Part shown: one piece after another, positions 3,950-18,570 of the stretch | Numbering within the stretch: the stretch's first letter is position 1 | Layout of the letters: each line of letters starts with the position of its first letter | Assembly (NCBI GenBank): GCA_022925895.1 | Contig: JAKSYS010000751.1 | Location: 1 to 27,584, forward strand | Length of the DNA: 27,584 nt | Direction: 5' to 3' | Source of the DNA: Fragilaria crotonensis | Taxonomy: Eukaryota; Bacillariophyta; Fragilariophyceae; Fragilariales; Fragilariaceae | Notes under the pieces: generated by a model | The model's database searches: none | Seen by the model: only the letters and a program-made list of their open reading frames with translations | What the model was told of the DNA's origin: nothing | Translations under genes and position numbers: made by a program

Positions 3950-4349
3950 TAGCAAGGTACTCAGAGCTCAGAGTACTAGCTAGGTCATACTACATGAAAA
4001 TCCTGTAAAATATATCCGGTAAATGACGGTTCGTGATGTAGTAAACGTAGCTAAACAGCTCAACTTCATCAGATTGCATTCAATGAAAATTGAATCTTGT
4101 TCGAAATTTTTGAAATCCCTCAAACCCTCAATTTCAGTGACTCAACGGAGAAATGTTTCTTATGTATGTTTGAGTCTACGTATCAAGTACAGAACCCATG
4201 TCGCGATATAAATTATATGCACTCTTGTAGGAAGCAATAAAGCAAAAGAAATTGGGCAAAGCTTAAAAAATGCACTCCCATCGAAATTCACCCTCGACTC
4301 TCGTTCCAACAACGCGGAAGCATTCACAGCCGCCATTCCCGTGAATACT

Positions 4350-6032
4350 ATGGAGGCTATAGGGACCTCTGGTTCATCCGATGCTCTGACCATCGCGCTA
4401 CGAGAGGAACGGCAGAAAGGAAAGGCACAGAGGGGTCATCACGCTGTTGAACCCGGTGCTGCACGTCACCGACATTCCGGGAAGAAGAAGAGTCGTAGTA
4501 AAGTTATGAAGGACGGCGTTGAAAAGGCGCGCCGAAACAAATCAGCCATGCTTGATGCGAATCAAGATCGTCACGGCGCTTCGTTTGCGATGCAGTCGAC
4601 GCCAACGAAACGAACGAACACACGCAAGGAGGAGATTTCGCCGGGAGGGACCATGACCACTGGATCTGAAATGTCTGAAGAGGACAAGCCCGAAGATTCA
4701 AGTAAAGGGAAGGTTGCGCGCAATCGCTCGCCAAGAGCCACTCAAGGAGTTGGGTTCATGAAGACTTTTTTCCGAAAAACAAAGCCGTCTCGTGTTCCAA
4801 GCACTGTTGAGACTACCTCGCCAGCTGCACCGTCTGCAACCCTTCGAGACCCAGATGTCCAGTCGATTGATACTCCTACCGTCCGGCATCGCAACACGAA
4901 AAAGCCGAAGAGCCTTCCTGGAGATTCTGATGATCCTGCCATTCTTATTAAGCGGGCTAGACGGTACAAGAAAAAAGCCAAGCGGCTTCTTGAACAAGCC
5001 ACGGCTATGGGTGGCGAGAAAGGGCACGCCAAGAAGGACGCGCGTGTTGTTGAAGCGTTGGCTCGAAAGTCGTATCGCTATGCTGCAGAATCCCGACGTT
5101 TATCTGAATTGATCCGCCTGAAGTTAAATTCAGAGGCATCTGAAATAGAAAGTCACGACTCTGAGAGTGACGCGTCAATTGTGCTGAATCCAGAGCGTAG
5201 ACAACCTAGCTCCAAGAAGAAGACTTCCGAAAACGAGGCGTACAGCCCTCCCGTGTGGGATGAAGACGATACTATTCAAACCATACATACCTCGTTCAGC
5301 GAGAAGGTTGAGCGGGATGAGCATAGAAGAAAATGGAAGGAATTTGAGCTCTTTGGTGCCACGGATTTGTTTGGTCCAATGGCTTGCGGCAGAGGTGTTG
5401 AATTAGGCCAACAGTATGCTCACGAAGCCAAGATTATTGTTCATTCCCTACGAGATGTGAGAAGCATGTCCGGTGATAACATGTCAGTCATGTCGCCTGA
5501 TACAGTCAAGTCCGACGAAACGACTGCAAGTGAAGCTGCGTTGCGACGGGAACACAACCAAAAGATGAAAGAATTGGAGTTATTCTCAGCGTCAAACATG
5601 ATGGAAAGCTGGAATGTGTGGGTGCAATCCTTTTGGACCCGCAAGGCGACAACGCCGGCAACTCAATTTGATGATGATGATGATGCCAATAGATCGCTTG
5701 ACGGCGACTCGCGTCAAGGCGAGGCGCGTCGCATGGGTGGCCTTTGTGGTCCCACCATGTTGGAAGACGATGTCCTCAATGACGACGACATGATCATAGA
5801 AAGGCGTCGTTACACTCATTTCATGGAAGATGAAGATTCATTCTCTGATGCGGATGGACATACCTCATCTAGCGACGAGGATGATAGTGGTTCTGGTAGT
5901 GGCGAAAGCGAGGTTGACAGTGACGATGAGAGTAAGGATGGCAAACGTGGTAGTGAGAGTAGCGATGAAAGCGACGACGAAAGCAAGCGAAGTCGCCGCG
6001 GAGTCTTCGGCCTTATATTTGACAAGTATTGA
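4350..6032 (+). CDS. unknown charged, low-complexity protein with an internal repeat
   Basis: Single exon, 560 residues. The ATG at 4350 is used because the frame upstream has only a GTG. I do not recognise the family. The first third is strongly basic and rich in Ser, Lys and Arg (GKKKSRSK, RNTKKPKSL). Residues about 205-265 form a Lys/Arg/Ala-rich helical stretch (RARRYKKKAKRLLEQA, ALARKSYRYAAESRRLSEL) that could be coiled coil. A motif occurs twice: DEHRRKWKEFELFGATDLF near 321-345 and REHNQKMKELELFSASNMM near 398-420. A poly-Asp run follows (near 447), and the C-terminal 60 residues are Ser/Asp/Glu-rich and acidic before a short RRGVFGLIFDKY end. Such composition suggests a disordered nuclear or scaffold protein, but that is inference. 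Its stop is 102 bp from the end of convergent gamma-tubulin. Confidence 0.75.
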   Translation: MEAIGTSGSSDALTIALREERQKGKAQRGHHAVEPGAARHRHSGKKKSRSKVMKDGVEKARRNKSAMLDANQDRHGASFAMQSTPTKRTNTRKEEISPGGTMTTGSEMSEEDKPEDSSKGKVARNRSPRATQGVGFMKTFFRKTKPSRVPSTVETTSPAAPSATLRDPDVQSIDTPTVRHRNTKKPKSLPGDSDDPAILIKRARRYKKKAKRLLEQATAMGGEKGHAKKDARVVEALARKSYRYAAESRRLSELIRLKLNSEASEIESHDSESDASIVLNPERRQPSSKKKTSENEAYSPPVWDEDDTIQTIHTSFSEKVERDEHRRKWKEFELFGATDLFGPMACGRGVELGQQYAHEAKIIVHSLRDVRSMSGDNMSVMSPDTVKSDETTASEAALRREHNQKMKELELFSASNMMESWNVWVQSFWTRKATTPATQFDDDDDANRSLDGDSRQGEARRMGGLCGPTMLEDDVLNDDDMIIERRRYTHFMEDEDSFSDADGHTSSSDEDDSGSGSGESEVDSDDESKDGKRGSESSDESDDESKRSRRGVFGLIFDKY

Positions 6033-13156: not shown

Positions 13157-13606
13157 CTACTTTTTCGCCACAACATTCTCCTTGCGGCACGCATCTTGCA
13201 ACAGTTCGGTATCAACGTGTTCCGGTGGGATTTGTATGTACCGTACCACCGAACCTCGGACGAAACAATTTTGTAAGGTGCACAATTGCGGATACCGTTC
13301 GGGGTTCACCACCTTGACATTGAGTAGTTTGACGTTCAAATACTGGTCGACCGAATGGAGTGTACCAGTCAGTACGACATCATTCTTTAATTCGACGGCA
13401 ACTTCCTTTCCGACAAGAGTCTTGAAGAATGAATAAAAAATCTGTGGCCAAGTGATGCAAATGTTGCAATTGTTGTTGTGAGTAAGGAGGAGGATAGCAA
13501 AATGGTAAACTCCTTCCTGTCATCCGTCGAAAACGTCCTTATGAGCCATTAACTGTTCACGTTCCGACGCGCTGATTCGAGGCGATTTTTATCAATAACA
13601 TACCAT
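13157..13606 (-). CDS. LSM2: U6 snRNA-associated Sm-like protein LSm2
   Basis: Exon 2 (13441 down to 13157) encodes IFYSFFKTLVGKEVAVELKN, the Sm1 block GTLHSVDQYLNVKL, the Sm2 block FVRGSVVRYIQIP and the LSm2 tail VDTELLQDACRKENVVAKK. It has no ATG of its own. On the same strand 162 nt upstream, ATG (13606-13604) is followed at once by a GTATGT donor, and the intron (13603-13442) ends in CACAG. Splicing gives a 95-residue protein, exactly the length of human LSm2, starting M-IFYSFF (human MLFYSFF). The first coding exon is therefore only the start codon. LSm2 is part of the LSm1-7 ring (mRNA decay, cytoplasm) and the LSm2-8 ring (U6 snRNA, nucleus). It is convergent with ATG11 and divergent from the permuted tRNA gene. 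Confidence 0.93.
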
Positions 13607-13789
13607 GAGAAGACCGGGCGAGGTATCGAAGAGGACAGCGGAAGTGGATGAATGAAAGGCAGATGAGGGCTTGCGGCTCAAGATGCGGGGTGGTGTGTAT
13701 GGTCCTTGTTGTATGATAACTCCAAATCATATATATATGCATACCAAAATCGGCCAGAGACCATCAATGTTTTCGAAGGATAGGTAGAC

Positions 13790-13797
13790 TTTAAATA
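13790..13797 (+). promoter_or_regulatory. possible TATA-like box upstream of the permuted tRNA
   Basis: TTTAAATA lies about 40 nt before the paired leader of the tRNA gene. Some plant and algal tRNA genes use an upstream TATA-like element. This one could equally be chance AT-rich sequence, or serve neither neighbour. Confidence 0.2.
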
Positions 13798-13862
13798 CCA
13801 TAAAAACAACACTTACGGATGACGTTTTGAACGTTGAAGCACAAAGTAAGCCCTTGGTCGCC

Positions 13863-13873
13863 GGTTCAAACCC
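13863..13873 (+). promoter_or_regulatory. B box of the permuted tRNA (placed upstream)
   Basis: GGTTCAAACCC matches the Pol III B-box consensus GGTTCRANNCC. In this gene it comes before the A box, the reverse of a normal tRNA gene. Confidence 0.7.
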
Positions 13874-13898
13874 GGCCTGGAGTATAGTCTTACTCCTG

Positions 13899-13909
13899 TA
13901 ACTCAGTGG
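13899..13909 (+). promoter_or_regulatory. A box of the permuted tRNA (placed downstream)
   Basis: TAACTCAGTGG fits the A-box pattern (T8, A9, D stem, A14-G15, G18-G19). It lies 26 nt after the B box, so the two internal promoter elements are in inverted order and close together. Confidence 0.6.
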
Positions 13910-13936
13910 TCAGAGTGGGGGTCTTATGAGAGCTTC

Positions 13937-13941
13937 TTTTT
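13937..13941 (+). terminator. T5 Pol III terminator after the permuted tRNA
   Basis: Five T residues follow the trailer helix GCTTC directly. This is where a Pol III transcript that starts with the 3' half and ends with the 5' half would stop, and there is no comparable T run between the halves. Confidence 0.65.
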
Positions 13942-14946
13942 GCACACTCTGAGATGAATGCGGAAGCCAACTTGCATGGATCAGAGGACCGAAGGTAGTC
14001 CACATTTCTTTTTTTCATCATGGTTGTTACTTTAGAGTGTTATTAGATATGTTATTGCAGAGATGCGATGTCAAGGCCAATTTGTATGAACTCACGTAAT
14101 TCTGTGTCTACGCCAGTGCTGTAGGGTAGTTGCACTATGTTACTACCGGTAGTACTAGTAGACCGTACTTATACGGGTACTGAGTACTGGTAGTCTGGTA
14201 CTGTAGTAGTTGCTATCGGTGATGATTATAGCGTTGTATGTCATAATTGGCGTATGATACCTGGTACAAATCGTACTCAGCACTGTACTCAGTATCAGTA
14301 CTTAATATTTAATATTACTTGAAATACGTACACGTCATTCTCGGTATGGTCACGACACTATGACGTTTTCGTGACAAGTTGTAGAATTCTCGTTCTCACA
14401 TAACGTGTCGTGCGTGTGGTGGAGCACGACGACACACGGAAACTTGTTGAAGGGTGGCTCTTTCGTCAGATTGGAACTGTGGTACTCGTAGTACAGTACG
14501 TGTACTGGTGTCGGTCTGTCGAGAGTCGAGAGATCGATCATAGCGACAGATGAGTTGGTTGTTTTCTGATTCATTACCATTTCCTTTTGATTAATCACGC
14601 GTCAACACTCACATACCGAACATCGTGTCGTTGATTTCAATCACCAGAACTCACACGCAGTCACAGTGTTCCTTTTATATTGTAGTGTTGCATCGCCAGT
14701 ATCTCTCGTGATTACAGATTCTTTGAATTTCGCCGGGAACCAACTTGAAATCCTGCATGACATCATCGACAATTACTACAACAGCGACGAGGCCGTGTTG
14801 TTTCGGTTCGGATATTCTGTTTTGCAATTGAACACATCAAGACGCTGGACAAATCAAGAACACCTAGGTATTCACAGGCACTCAAAAAGAGAGAAACAAA
14901 TAGACAGAGACGGACGATCGCTTCGACTAAGATTCACATTGTCCTT
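13942..14946. other. intergenic before the CCA-enzyme gene
   Basis: No gene is supported. From about 14110 to 14330 it carries GTAC-type palindromes, including TACTACCGGTAGTA at 14141-14154. Two open frames (near 14350-14598 minus and 14666-15022 plus) lack conserved motifs, and the plus-strand one has no convincing start. The promoter and 5' leader of the CCA-adding enzyme should be in the last few hundred bases. Confidence 0.55.
14141..14154. repeat. TACTACCGGTAGTA palindrome, copy 2 of 3
   Basis: A perfect 14-nt palindrome, identical to that at 22259-22272. Its core decamer is shared with 3940-3949. Confidence 0.75.
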
Positions 14947-17211
14947 ATGGCTGGTATTGATCGACATCGTCGAAGGCAACAATTTGCTTCCCTACCCTTC
15001 ATTGTTTTGCTGGTTATCATGATTTCTCGTCTGATTCCATCGTTCTCAATGGTCATATCCAATTGTCATCGGAGGTCTGCGCCGATGATGATGGCCCTGG
15101 ACTCGAGAACATTGAGATTCTACAGCGGAGAGGATGGGACTGTTGCGACGTTGCTGGGGGAACGCAGACTGGAAATGGCGCATGGAACCACCAGCTCCTC
15201 CATTCAAGGCTCGCGCAACAACAATAACATCAACAACGAAAAATCAGGTACAAACTACAATATAGAATTAACTGAAGACGAGGCTAAGCTCTTTGAGCTA
15301 CTTCGCCAAGTCACGGCCGAAACGAAATTGGGATCCACCTTGCGAGTTGCCGGAGGATGGGTCCGTGATAAGCTCCTTGCGACTCCGGAATTTCAGCGTC
15401 ACCATCACTCGCCACCCGAGAAGCACAAGGCTGGCCGACTAGCGTCTAAATTCCATAAATCATCCCAAGGTTCCATGGGACGCCAGGGGACCAAACTTGT
15501 GATTGAAGACGACACTCATCAACCGGTGGATATCGACATTGCTCTTGATGACATGCTCGGGCGCGAATTTGCAGATCATTTGAACGAATATCTTCAGAAC
15601 CATGGAGAAAAGACAGTTGCGGTCGGTGTGGTCCTCAAGAATCCAGAAAAGTCAAAGCATTTGGAGACCGCGACGATGAAGGTCGGGTCTTTCTGGATTG
15701 ATTTCGTTAACCTTCGTGCAGAAGAATATACTCAAAACAGCCGAATACCCGACATGATGCGTATCGGGACACCCTCTGAAGATGCTTTTCGAAGAGACTT
15801 GACCATCAATTCTCTCTTTTACAACATTAATTCGCAACAAGTAGAGGATTTTACAGGTCGGGGTTTCGATGATTTGAAGCGAGGTGTTGTCGCGACGCCG
15901 ATGGCTCCATTGACGACTCTCCTGGATGACCCTCTTCGAGTTTTGCGGGCGGTGCGATTTGCAGCCAGACTCAGATTTGCCATGGATACTGCCTTGATTC
16001 AAGCTTCCAGGGATGCCAAAGTTCGCGATGCCCTCGCTCAAAAGGTATCTAGAGAACGCGTGGGCGGAGAGGTCGACCTTATGCTTCGATCGCCCGACCC
16101 CGTTGGAGCCATGCGACTTCTAATCAACCTCAACCTTGTCGAAACTGTCTTCCCCATTCGTGAGGTGCTTCCTGAAGAATTCCCAGGGGGTATTTTTATC
16201 TTTACAAATGGTCTGAATGTCCTTTCCACAACCTTTGACTATCTCTGTGACAACAAAAGGAAGCCACCGCTGTGGTGTGAAATAAAGCAACAGTCGACGA
16301 CTCATGGATTTTGCGAATCTACACTGTTGCAGGATGAAGAGGCTAGAAGATTACTCTGGTACGCTGCTTTCTTGAAACCCCTGCACGACTATTCTATATT
16401 GCTTCCCGAAAGAAAGCCTAGTCCGCAAAACGGCAAGAAAGCTAATCGTTCGATAATTTCAAAACTGCTTGTGGATCATCTCAAGCGACCCAGCCGTGAT
16501 GCGGATAACATTGAAAAGATTACGAGAGCAGCTGATGACTTCACCAAACTCATGGGGGCTGGCTTTGACCTCTCTGCGGAGTCAGTTTTGTTGAGTGGTA
16601 TTCGGGTGCATCACGATGTGGGCAGCGTCGGCGATGACTCTGACACTCTGTGCTGTCGAATGGGGAACAAGCTTATTGACAGTGAGACGGAAGACGATCC
16701 TCTCTGGCTGCATGCCATGGAATTCAGACTTCTCACTTCAAAAGTGCTTGGTCGTGTTGGTCATTTATGGAGGGCGGCGTTTGTACTGTCTCTGGTCGAG
16801 GAGCTCGTTTCTGCGACGGACGATGACTTGGAATACAGAATCGAAGGAGATGTGGTAAGTGAATGTCCTTTGGACCTCAACGGCGACGCTAGTTTCTTTA
16901 CGTGTTTCCTCATCGCATATTTTTACCATGTGTTTCAGTTTGAAGAAAGTCAGGAAGAAAGACGGCAAGGCATCATTGATCAGTACGACGCCTTTGCCGC
17001 TGCGCTACAGAAACTCGGTCTGATAGGCGTATGGACCCGAAAGCCGCTTATTGATGGCGACTCCATGAAGGCTGTGCTTCCCAATATCCCTGTTGGGCCT
17101 GGCTTCCGAGAGGTTATGGATGAACAGCAGAGTTGGATGACCACCCACCCTGGAGGAGGAATAGACGCCTTGTCGGCGCACTTGAGGGAAGTTTTTGCAG
17201 ACTTTGCATGA
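14947..17211 (+). CDS. CCA1: CCA-adding tRNA nucleotidyltransferase, with a likely in-frame intron
   Basis: The ATG at 14947 opens a basic then hydrophobic leader (RRQQFASLPFIVLLVIMISRL) that could be a signal or organelle-targeting peptide. Class II nucleotidyltransferase motifs follow. LRVAGGWVRDKLL starts near residue 134, and VDIDIALDDM near 196 holds the metal-binding DxD pair. DAFRRDLTINSLFYN starts near 279, then DFTGRGFDDLKRGVVATP and DDPLRVLRAVRFAARLRF. The C terminus ends LGLIGVWTRKPLIDGDSM and HPGGG, as in CCA enzymes. Positions 16855-16938 start GTAAGT and end TTTCAG, are 84 nt long (28 codons), contain no stop, and encode a hydrophobic stretch that interrupts the charged region DV-FEESQEE. 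I take this as an intron, giving 726 residues instead of 754. The enzyme adds CCA to tRNA 3' ends, needed because nuclear tRNA genes lack it. Confidence 0.92.
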   Translation: MAGIDRHRRRQQFASLPFIVLLVIMISRLIPSFSMVISNCHRRSAPMMMALDSRTLRFYSGEDGTVATLLGERRLEMAHGTTSSSIQGSRNNNNINNEKSGTNYNIELTEDEAKLFELLRQVTAETKLGSTLRVAGGWVRDKLLATPEFQRHHHSPPEKHKAGRLASKFHKSSQGSMGRQGTKLVIEDDTHQPVDIDIALDDMLGREFADHLNEYLQNHGEKTVAVGVVLKNPEKSKHLETATMKVGSFWIDFVNLRAEEYTQNSRIPDMMRIGTPSEDAFRRDLTINSLFYNINSQQVEDFTGRGFDDLKRGVVATPMAPLTTLLDDPLRVLRAVRFAARLRFAMDTALIQASRDAKVRDALAQKVSRERVGGEVDLMLRSPDPVGAMRLLINLNLVETVFPIREVLPEEFPGGIFIFTNGLNVLSTTFDYLCDNKRKPPLWCEIKQQSTTHGFCESTLLQDEEARRLLWYAAFLKPLHDYSILLPERKPSPQNGKKANRSIISKLLVDHLKRPSRDADNIEKITRAADDFTKLMGAGFDLSAESVLLSGIRVHHDVGSVGDDSDTLCCRMGNKLIDSETEDDPLWLHAMEFRLLTSKVLGRVGHLWRAAFVLSLVEELVSATDDDLEYRIEGDVVSECPLDLNGDASFFTCFLIAYFYHVFQFEESQEERRQGIIDQYDAFAAALQKLGLIGVWTRKPLIDGDSMKAVLPNIPVGPGFREVMDEQQSWMTTHPGGGIDALSAHLREVFADFA
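16855..16938 (+). other. probable in-frame 84-nt intron in the CCA-enzyme gene
   Basis: The donor is GTAAGT and the acceptor TTTCAG, with phase 0 on both sides and length divisible by three. The encoded segment is rich in Phe, Tyr and Ile, unlike the hydrophilic flanks. If retained it would add 28 residues without a frameshift. Confidence 0.7.
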
Positions 17212-17226
17212 TATCCTTTGTTGCCA

Positions 17227-18090
17227 TCAATAATCATAGTCACACGTTTCATTGTAGAAGACGCTCGCCAGTGCACCTGGGGCTTCAATGGCCATTTCTG
17301 CGGCCAGTTCATTTTCATGCTTGTGCTCTTGCCTGTCCTTTGCCCGCGACTGGAATGTTGGCAATCGTCCTCGTTGAACATTTGCCACTTGAAATTTGTG
17401 TCCATGAAAGACTCTCTCATGATATCCCGCCCACTGTGTCAAGTGATGCAAAGTGATGCTTAAACAGGATGGCACATCCAGGGGCAGATCTACTGGTTGA
17501 CCGCCAACAGGCGGGATTGCCACATGCGGTACATGAACAAAAAAATCGCAATGTGCGGCCAGCTCCATTGGAAGTCCCTTGTTACTTTTGCTCAAAACGA
17601 CACAGTAGTTACCACTACTACTTTGTGAAAGAAATGGCTTTGTATGGACCGGATACGACAGTGGCAAAGCTGCGCTGCGGCTCGATGGCGTGTTGTTCTC
17701 CTCCAAAGGACCTACAACTCGTATCGAATCATGTTGAATGTTGTGCGCTGATGGGTATCCTGCTGGACTGTAGGCCCCTGCCGCACCGACACACAGGAGG
17801 CCCATGAGTGTCTCGCAATTGCAGCCGCCATTTTCGTCGTTGATGGATCGTCGGAGATACGCCACGGCTTGATTCCATACTGGGAATGCCACAATATCGA
17901 CATGTTTCGATGCCCCATGTGATCCCTCCGTATTACACTTGTCGTACCCAACAAGAATAACTTGAGTGACAGCAAAGGCAGCGGCGCATCGAAGGATGGG
18001 ACCCAAATTGTTGGATTTCTTGGGATTCTCAATCAAAAGGAAAATTCTGGGAGGTAAAAGTGGTGTGGCTGATGCTTCATTGTCGCTCAT
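17227..18090 (-). CDS. SpoU/TrmH-like (SPOUT) RNA methyltransferase-fold protein
   Basis: 287 residues from the ATG at 18090 (MSDNEASAT); the frame upstream reaches only a TTG. The start of the SpoU domain is clear: RIFLLIENPKKSNNLGPILRCAAAF holds motif 1 (N, G and R spaced as usual), then VTQVILVGYDKC and HGASKHVDIVAF. Motif 2 is weak: VVLSKSNKGLPMELAAHCDFF stands where SpoU proteins usually have a G-E pair. Motif 3 reads LDVPSCLSITLHHL instead of the usual L-N-V-S. The family 2'-O-methylates ribose in tRNA or rRNA using SAM bound in a trefoil knot. With two motifs altered, activity here is uncertain. The C-terminal tail is rich in Lys, His and Glu. Its stop lies 15 bp from the stop of the convergent CCA enzyme, so the 3' UTRs must overlap. 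Confidence 0.8.
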   Translation of the reverse strand: MSDNEASATPLLPPRIFLLIENPKKSNNLGPILRCAAAFAVTQVILVGYDKCNTEGSHGASKHVDIVAFPVWNQAVAYLRRSINDENGGCNCETLMGLLCVGAAGAYSPAGYPSAHNIQHDSIRVVGPLEENNTPSSRSAALPLSYPVHTKPFLSQSSSGNYCVVLSKSNKGLPMELAAHCDFFVHVPHVAIPPVGGQPVDLPLDVPSCLSITLHHLTQWAGYHERVFHGHKFQVANVQRGRLPTFQSRAKDRQEHKHENELAAEMAIEAPGALASVFYNETCDYDY

Positions 18091-18570
18091 ATCGTGGTTG
18101 TTATGGGTGTATTTATCTGGGGAGGATGCGTGATATACGTATGATCGGTTGGAGATATCTTGCAATGCCTCGATTACTGTGGGAACTATGCTTTCTCTCG
18201 ACTGGCGTCAAAACTTGGAGGGGTCCGTCGCCAAGTGTGCTGATCCGCCTTACGTTGGGAACACTGGTGATGGATGCAGTATTTCAAATTTCAACCGATT
18301 TGTGCTTTCTCGAAGTGAGTGATCGGTGATCGGTGATCGGTGATCGGTGATCGAACATGGAAGTGGCGCCATGATGGATTCAGAACGTACGACCAACTTA
18401 CGTTATTCGACTACTGTATTTGTACTGTTACCTGGTACTGTAGTACTAGGTACGAGTAGCGGTCCACTAAAGTACATGCATATTTTTATTTTTATAGAAT
18501 ACAAATATGTATGTGTATCATATCGTCACCCTAAGTTGTACATAGGATTGTGCTTGTACATACTTGTGTC
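18091..18570. other. intergenic between divergent SpoU-like and P4H genes
   Basis: It contains the GTGATCG tandem repeat (18319-18353) and a small GTAC-type cluster near 18415-18460 (TACTGTA, GGTACTGTAGTACTAGGTAC). No gene is seen. It probably serves as a two-way promoter region. Confidence 0.5.
18319..18353. repeat. GTGATCG x5 tandem repeat
   Basis: Five perfect head-to-tail copies of a 7-nt unit, with no spacers. Confidence 0.9.

Follow-up and report, generated by a model that had tools for sequence, protein, structure and literature searches.

Layout of the locus

The window (the whole stretch of DNA analysed, 27,584 nucleotides, which is all of contig C726 in an assembly of 62.1 Mb and 881 contigs) contains at 13849-13928 a complete tRNA whose 3′ half lies ahead of its 5′ half. 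Including the leader, the spacer, the trailer and a T5 run, the whole permuted unit spans about 110 nt. Its features are given below; those without a stated basis were read from the letters.

13790..13797, +: candidate upstream promoter, TATA-like box TTTAAATA (sequence match only)
13836..13848, +: leader, GAAGCACAAAGTA, whose GAAGC pairs with GCTTC of the trailer and whose final GTA abuts the 3′ half (fold, in-register pairing)
13849..13884, +: tRNA 3′ half, A38 to A73 (letters, ARAGORN on the rotated sequence, permuted-order model)
13849, +: A38
13850-13854, +: anticodon-stem 3′ strand
13855-13859, +: variable loop
13860-13876, +: T arm
13877-13883, +: acceptor 3′ strand
13884, +: A73
13885..13891, +: intervening sequence TAGTCTT between the acceptor strands, 7 nt (ARAGORN on the rotated sequence)
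13892..13928, +: tRNA 5′ half, positions 1 to 37 (letters, rotated ARAGORN, permuted-order model)
13892-13898, +: acceptor 5′ strand, 6/7 pairs with one T-T mismatch
13899, +: U8
13900, +: A9
13901-13916, +: D arm, 4/4 pairs
13917, +: G26
13918-13922, +: anticodon-stem 5′ strand, 5/5 pairs, two of them G-U
13923-13928, +: part of the anticodon loop
13925..13927, +: anticodon TAT (Ile, reads AUA; ARAGORN on the rotated sequence)
13929..13936, +: trailer AGAGCTTC, whose GCTTC pairs with the leader (fold, in-register pairing)
13937..13941, +: T5 run, candidate RNA polymerase III terminator

The 3′ half thus carries the 3′ strand of the anticodon stem, the variable loop, the T arm with its B box GGTTCAAACCC, the 3′ strand of the acceptor stem and the discriminator A. 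The 5′ half carries the 5′ strand of the acceptor stem, the D arm, the 5′ strand of the anticodon stem and CTTATG. The preliminary description had proposed this exchanged order of the halves, which is borne out letter by letter; the covariance-model search that it suggested yields a match in permuted order (67.9 bits). Its stem counts proved correct on a letter-by-letter recount, the conserved tRNA bases that it listed are in place, and ARAGORN calls the rotated RNA a tRNA-Ile(tat) of 73 bases. As it had anticipated, standard finders pass over the locus: ARAGORN, with or without introns allowed, and Rfam at its gathering threshold report no tRNA in the unrotated window. Two intact tandem tRNAs and an intron-containing tRNA were considered and rejected, as ARAGORN finds neither with intron settings of 0–3000 and 0–200.

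The permuted-order model, R1, was trained on 27 class I tRNAs from this assembly, each cut at 37/38; the candidate was not among them. Class II tRNAs and duplicates were excluded, and the training set comprises 14 nuclear tRNAs and 13 from two contigs taken for plastid and mitochondrion. The tRNA catalogue comes from a genome search with RF00005 in which 63 of 2258 candidates were scored, and is therefore incomplete. The 28 matches lying outside the two organelle-like contigs were all fetched; of the 35 matches on these two contigs, C880 and C881, those read lie in L001–L003, L005–L008, L062 and L063.

With filters off, R1 scores the candidate at 67.9 bits (E 3e-23, R1 E-values being rough owing to a short calibration) and the runner-up in the 27.6-kb window at 8.4 bits. 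Since R1 also gives 45.4 bits to an ordinary tandem of plastid type and 41–69 bits to the YrlA-like loci described below (taking the top hit at each locus; 30 of 30 loci in one set and 4 of 4 in another), this score proves the order of the arms and not function, and R1 is unable to separate a tRNA gene from a YrlA RNA. When 110-nt tiles were doubled and submitted to ARAGORN, one locus emerged in the window, in seven overlapping tiles (five read as Ile-TAT, one as Gln and one as Ser); the control, ten dinucleotide-shuffled windows, also gave one locus. The free energy is unremarkable (z-scores of −1.46 for the precursor and −1.34 for the rotated RNA) and is uninformative here.

Isoacceptor identity and genomic setting

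The tRNA, left unnamed in the preliminary description, is tRNA-Ile(UAU), an isoacceptor carried by most eukaryotes. Among 29 tRNAs of the same assembly, the nearest to the rotated sequence is the nuclear Ile-AAU (69%), followed by a mitochondrial-type Asn (68%) and by the nuclear Met and plastid-type Ile-CAU (67%). Within the Pfam-matched parts of ten window ORFs (2145 codons), Ile is encoded 132 times, 16 of them by ATA. Thr(AGU) was also considered as the product, the 3′ half reading AGUAA if joined at 33/34, and was rejected because an intact Thr-AGU gene is present in two contigs.

A second tRNA-Ile(UAU) gene was sought in the whole genome with four patterns. The D-arm pattern CTCA..GAG with TTAT matches once, at the permuted locus, and the D-arm pattern CGCA..GCG has no match; for these two, the sole control is the permuted locus itself. 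No match was obtained with a pattern for an intact intronless Ile-UAU gene from anticodon loop to T loop, which with AGT as a control finds two places, both tRNA-Thr(AGU). A general D-arm pattern matches at 12 places including the permuted locus, the 11 others not being tRNAs by ARAGORN at its default threshold or by Rfam gathering; the same pattern with AAT, as a control, matches at nine places, one of them a tRNA, Ile-AAU. A run of ARAGORN with a lowered threshold returned 1081 calls in 47 loci and was discarded. Thus no other intact gene covering this tRNA, a prospect that the preliminary description had raised, was found with the four patterns. This points to the permuted locus as probably the only source of tRNA-Ile(UAU), within the limits of patterns that cover part of the possible D arms and introns and of an assembly that may be incomplete.

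The permuted locus is present in a single copy, on contig C726 alone, and BLAST detects no other copy of either tRNA half in the genome. One pattern for further permuted genes, limited to exact GGTTCNANNCC and CTCA types, gave 25 places (13 forward, 12 reverse), and its reversed control gave 37. Run on these 25 places and 11 more, R1 matches only the permuted locus and two copies of the plastid-type Ile-GAU/Ala-UGC tandem.

Assignment of the contig to the nuclear DNA of a diatom, given as probable in the preliminary description, is supported by sequence comparisons. The neighbours of the locus are eukaryotic genes of nuclear type, such as tubulin, together with a DUF6824 protein (Pfam matches), and the rbcL gene of the plastid-like contig C881 matches red-type Rubisco entries with up to 1060.6 bits. 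The best-matching of these PDB entries, such as 5n9z, 5mz2 and 6ftl, are diatom Rubiscos.

Several other elements were observed in the assembly. The next long ORFs downstream of the locus (window 14761-18207) encode a protein of the poly(A) polymerase/CCA-enzyme family and a SpoU-type RNA methylase; that both belong to RNA-processing families is probably a coincidence. An inverted repeat with 16-nt arms, 88% complementary and 97 nt apart, lies at 14172-14300 of the window. On contig C880, which looks mitochondrial, six tRNA-model matches of identical score follow one another at 69508-75687, 1.03 to 1.36 kb apart. This array is a tandem repeat, and those matches that were read (L007, L008) are tRNA-Lys.

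Flanking signals, junction and putative processing

By sequence, the signals are laid out as for one transcription unit, with a TATA-like box upstream, a T run downstream and no T run between the halves. The octamer TTTAAATA at 13790-13797 is unique in the window on both strands; it was picked after the fact and is a candidate by sequence. Among 31 rows of ordinary nuclear tRNA genes, in which one gene is listed twice, it occurs at most 80 nt upstream in two (L011, L020), and a run of at least four T within 30 nt downstream is found in all 31. A sigma-70 promoter scan of 13600-14100 found none. Two loci in the genome match the tRNA splicing endonuclease family PF01974, and an RtcB ligase was not found in the genome. 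Homologs of the Trl1-type ligase have been reported from diatoms, according to the accessible part of the source (PMC4090602).

The leader and trailer allow a near-strict, not strict, bulge-helix-bulge at a 37/38 junction. It comprises an outer helix with 6/7 pairs, a bulge UG^A, a central helix with 3/4 pairs and a bulge UA^A38. Nine of the 11 in-register pairs form, with two A-A mismatches (P 0.003 against random window flanks), and the C32-G(-3) pair can form, in agreement with the anticodon-intron pair rule. If register is disregarded, a helix of 5 bp between leader and trailer is not unusual (P 0.084), so the evidence for the junction rests on the register. In the minimum free energy (MFE) structure of the precursor, GAAGC and GCUUC are paired as well; inside them GUAAG pairs with CUUAU, a different central helix.

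Joining at 37/38 gives the loop CUUAUGA, with G at position 37, whereas the other nuclear tRNA species that were read and that decode A-initial codons, ten in number, all carry A37. The 3′ half has UAA before G39, and the regular loop CUUAUAA would arise from a junction at 35/36 or 36/37; by hand comparison, these two junctions fit the bulge-helix-bulge register and the C32 pair less well. It is conceivable, though we hold it only tentatively and think it doubtful, that the sole AUA decoder found exists only as a permuted gene and that the join in its precursor falls one or two nucleotides before 37/38, restoring A37 from the UAA of the 3′ half. If true, this permuted tRNA gene would be the first in a stramenopile, and it would show a eukaryotic anticodon loop being joined elsewhere than at 37/38.

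Taking the locus as a whole, we infer function for the permuted gene from its sequence, and consider it likely, with good confidence, that it is a functional type II circularly permuted nuclear gene for a diatom tRNA-Ile(UAU) with its junction in the anticodon loop. Against this reading we count G37, the acceptor mismatch, the two G-U pairs of the anticodon stem, the match to the YrlA model and the failure to find RtcB, as well as the P of 0.084 for the helix, the other central helix of the MFE structure and the occurrence of the TATA-like octamer in only two of the 31 rows.

By analogy with Cyanidioschyzon, a processing pathway can be proposed for such a gene. RNA polymerase III would start downstream of the TATA-like box and stop at T5. 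In the folded linear precursor, pairing of leader with trailer would extend the anticodon stem into a bulge-helix-bulge, both bulges of which the tRNA splicing endonuclease would cut. A ligase would then join position 37 to 38, yielding a circle, from which RNase P and tRNase Z would excise the 7-nt spacer at the acceptor ends. Finally, the CCA enzyme would add CCA.

YrlA-like RNAs, rival readings and known permuted genes

Bacterial YrlA Y RNAs possess a basal stem, formed from the two ends of the RNA, that bears a tRNA-like domain resembling the D, T and acceptor arms, as described in the part of the source available to us (PMC8394870). A pattern for relatives of the diatom locus matched nine stretches in viral contigs and three in bacterial or archaeal genome contigs. 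No diatom-like locus was found, which carries little weight in contigs that are viral, bacterial and archaeal. As candidate permuted relatives, L101, L103, L104 and L105 were rejected as ordinary tandem tRNA clusters and L106 for having no R1 match. A new class of permuted tRNAs was also considered for the remaining loci and dismissed: matches to the Rfam YrlA model and neighbouring Ro/TROVE genes point to YrlA-like Y RNAs.

At least 120 IMG/VR stretches match a pattern of the leader GGTTACTT followed by permuted tRNA arms. The YrlA-like locus set comprises L100, L107 and L108-L186 (for example L123:5694-5788 and L118:1629-1718), with 84 distinct cores in 81 loci among the matches listed, all from IMG/VR except one bacterial MAG. 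Among these listed matches, doubling gives a junction-spanning tRNA for 82 of the 84 cores, and six overlap an ordinary ARAGORN gene (17 if introns are allowed). An anticodon arm can be assigned in 67 of the 84; 40 of these 67 have U33 and at least 4/5 stem pairs, with varied anticodons and a split near 28/29, and 25 have three stem pairs or fewer. Both cross-junction pairs form in 44 of the same 67 listed cores, compared with 25% when partners are swapped. In an alignment of 22 YrlA-like sequences, 17 of 23 predicted pairs, including those of the outer helix and the acceptor, have both partners changed. Seven phage or viral-contig loci were compared with the Rfam YrlA model, and each matches below its cut-off. 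These sequences suggest that in the YrlA-like RNAs of viral contigs a complete permuted tRNA, with its anticodon arm, is often present. Literature searches brought up no report of their processing to real tRNAs.

Permuted-order YrlA-like RNAs also occur in Caulobacter phage CcrColossus (JX100810; L227:531-607, 709-801, 1034-1111) and Microbacterium phage FuzzBuster (MN062720; L228:1019-1094), in both cases upstream of a gene for a TROVE-like or Ro-like protein; they are unannotated except for one CcrColossus match that overlaps an annotated tRNA-Gln. An Acidobacteriaceae MAG (PMGP01000315.1) contains two adjacent YrlA-like copies (L107:5719-5793, 5901-5972), the second of which, by hand, reads as Lys(CUU) split near 30/31. 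In IMGVR_UViG_3300031998_003694, two permuted-order tRNA-like units (L102:3829-3903, 4035-4111; R1 61.5 and 55.4 bits) lie between ordinary tRNA genes. Their leader is another one, TCAGCAA; they also have an outer helix, and by hand their split falls near 29/30 with the anticodon loop complete.

That the diatom locus is a YrlA-type, tRNA-mimicking Y RNA that binds a Ro60 protein, and not a tRNA precursor, is a reading to which we give little credence. The order of the arms is the same, with a basal stem from the two RNA ends, and the Rfam model spans 13834-13941 end to end (26.3 bits, E 0.0012 for 351 bases), about as well as it matches the weakest of the seven phage or viral-contig loci (26.4 bits). 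R1, which gives YrlA-like loci 41–69 bits, does not discriminate. However, 26.3 bits lies far from the Rfam cut-off of 69, although the seven loci fall below it too. YrlA-like loci with an assignable anticodon arm have the anticodon wholly in the 3′ part, a junction near 28/29 and GGTTACTT ahead, the last of these having belonged to the search pattern for the viral-contig loci; in the diatom, the anticodon lies in the 5′ half, the junction is at 37/38 and the GGTTACTT leader is absent. Moreover, the anticodon of the locus is the one for which the genome yielded no further gene, the most similar of the tRNAs compared is Ile-AAU, and no Ro/TROVE gene is present among the 10 scanned of the window's 19 long ORFs. 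A Y RNA reading of the diatom locus is thus unlikely.

We regard as improbable that the locus is a non-functional relic, in which a tandem tRNA-Ile duplication lost its outer halves and processing ceased. Such a duplication, followed by loss of the outer halves, is one origin proposed for permuted genes in the accessible part of a review (PMC3978253), and the unexpected G37 and the acceptor mismatch would suit decay. Yet the four arms are complete and the conserved bases in place (67.9 bits), the flanking signals and the junction pairing are kept, and the four patterns reveal no replacement Ile-UAU gene. Nor does 13400-14400 contain a direct repeat resembling an outer half, or the genome a BLAST-detectable copy of a half. 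An assembly or chimera artefact that placed the halves in the wrong order is more easily imagined for one copy on one contig, but the complete unit lies within about 110 nt, a false join would not be expected to create a complementary leader and trailer, and BLAST of the genome finds no conventional copy that could have been rearranged; we consider this extremely unlikely.

Read as a functional permuted gene, the locus would extend permuted tRNA genes to stramenopiles, in keeping with repeated independent origin. It would be a case of a probably essential tRNA, encoded in single copy, that depends on circularisation, would explain why standard annotation would find this genome to be without tRNA-Ile(UAU), and suggests that other diatoms with missing isoacceptors be rechecked. 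In the accessible parts of the 2014 review, the permuted tRNA genes listed belong to a red alga, to green algae, to a nucleomorph and to one archaeon, with 1–74 bp between the acceptor strands; its Table 1 gives 34 permuted genes, none from a diatom and none for tRNA-Ile(UAU), and the terms diatom, Thalassiosira, Phaeodactylum, stramenopile and heterokont do not occur in these parts (PMC3978253). No permuted tRNA gene of a diatom was found in the open-access literature, covered mostly by titles and the beginnings of abstracts, with subscription papers mostly outside it. The diatom example is a gene of a known kind in an apparently new lineage.

The closest comparison, within what the accessible parts of the review give, is with the type II genes of Cyanidioschyzon merolae, Ostreococcus, Micromonas and the Bigelowiella nucleomorph (PMC3978253, Table 1). 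These share with the diatom locus the leading 3′ half, the 37/38 junction and a short spacer, which in both C. merolae Gly(CCC) genes is likewise 7 bp, as well as an upstream TATA-like box, a downstream T run and bulge-helix-bulge-like pairing of leader and trailer. The diatom locus differs from them in its host, in encoding Ile(UAU), which is outside the 34, and in the G that a 37/38 junction would place at position 37. The same isoacceptor is disrupted in a red alga: tRNA-Ile(UAU) of C. merolae is described, in the part of the source available, with three introns, unlike the diatom locus (PMC9602550). The permuted tRNA genes of Auxenochlorella came to light through an incomplete tRNAscan-SE set, according to the accessible part of the report, in a green alga and not a diatom (PMC12636532). 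YrlA (RF02553) shares with the diatom locus a T arm, an acceptor hairpin and a D arm inside a basal stem, and a weak model match, but has no anticodon loop spanning 37/38, a different leader and a bacterial or phage host; in two of the four phages examined, YrlA-like RNAs adjoin genes annotated as Ro/TROVE.
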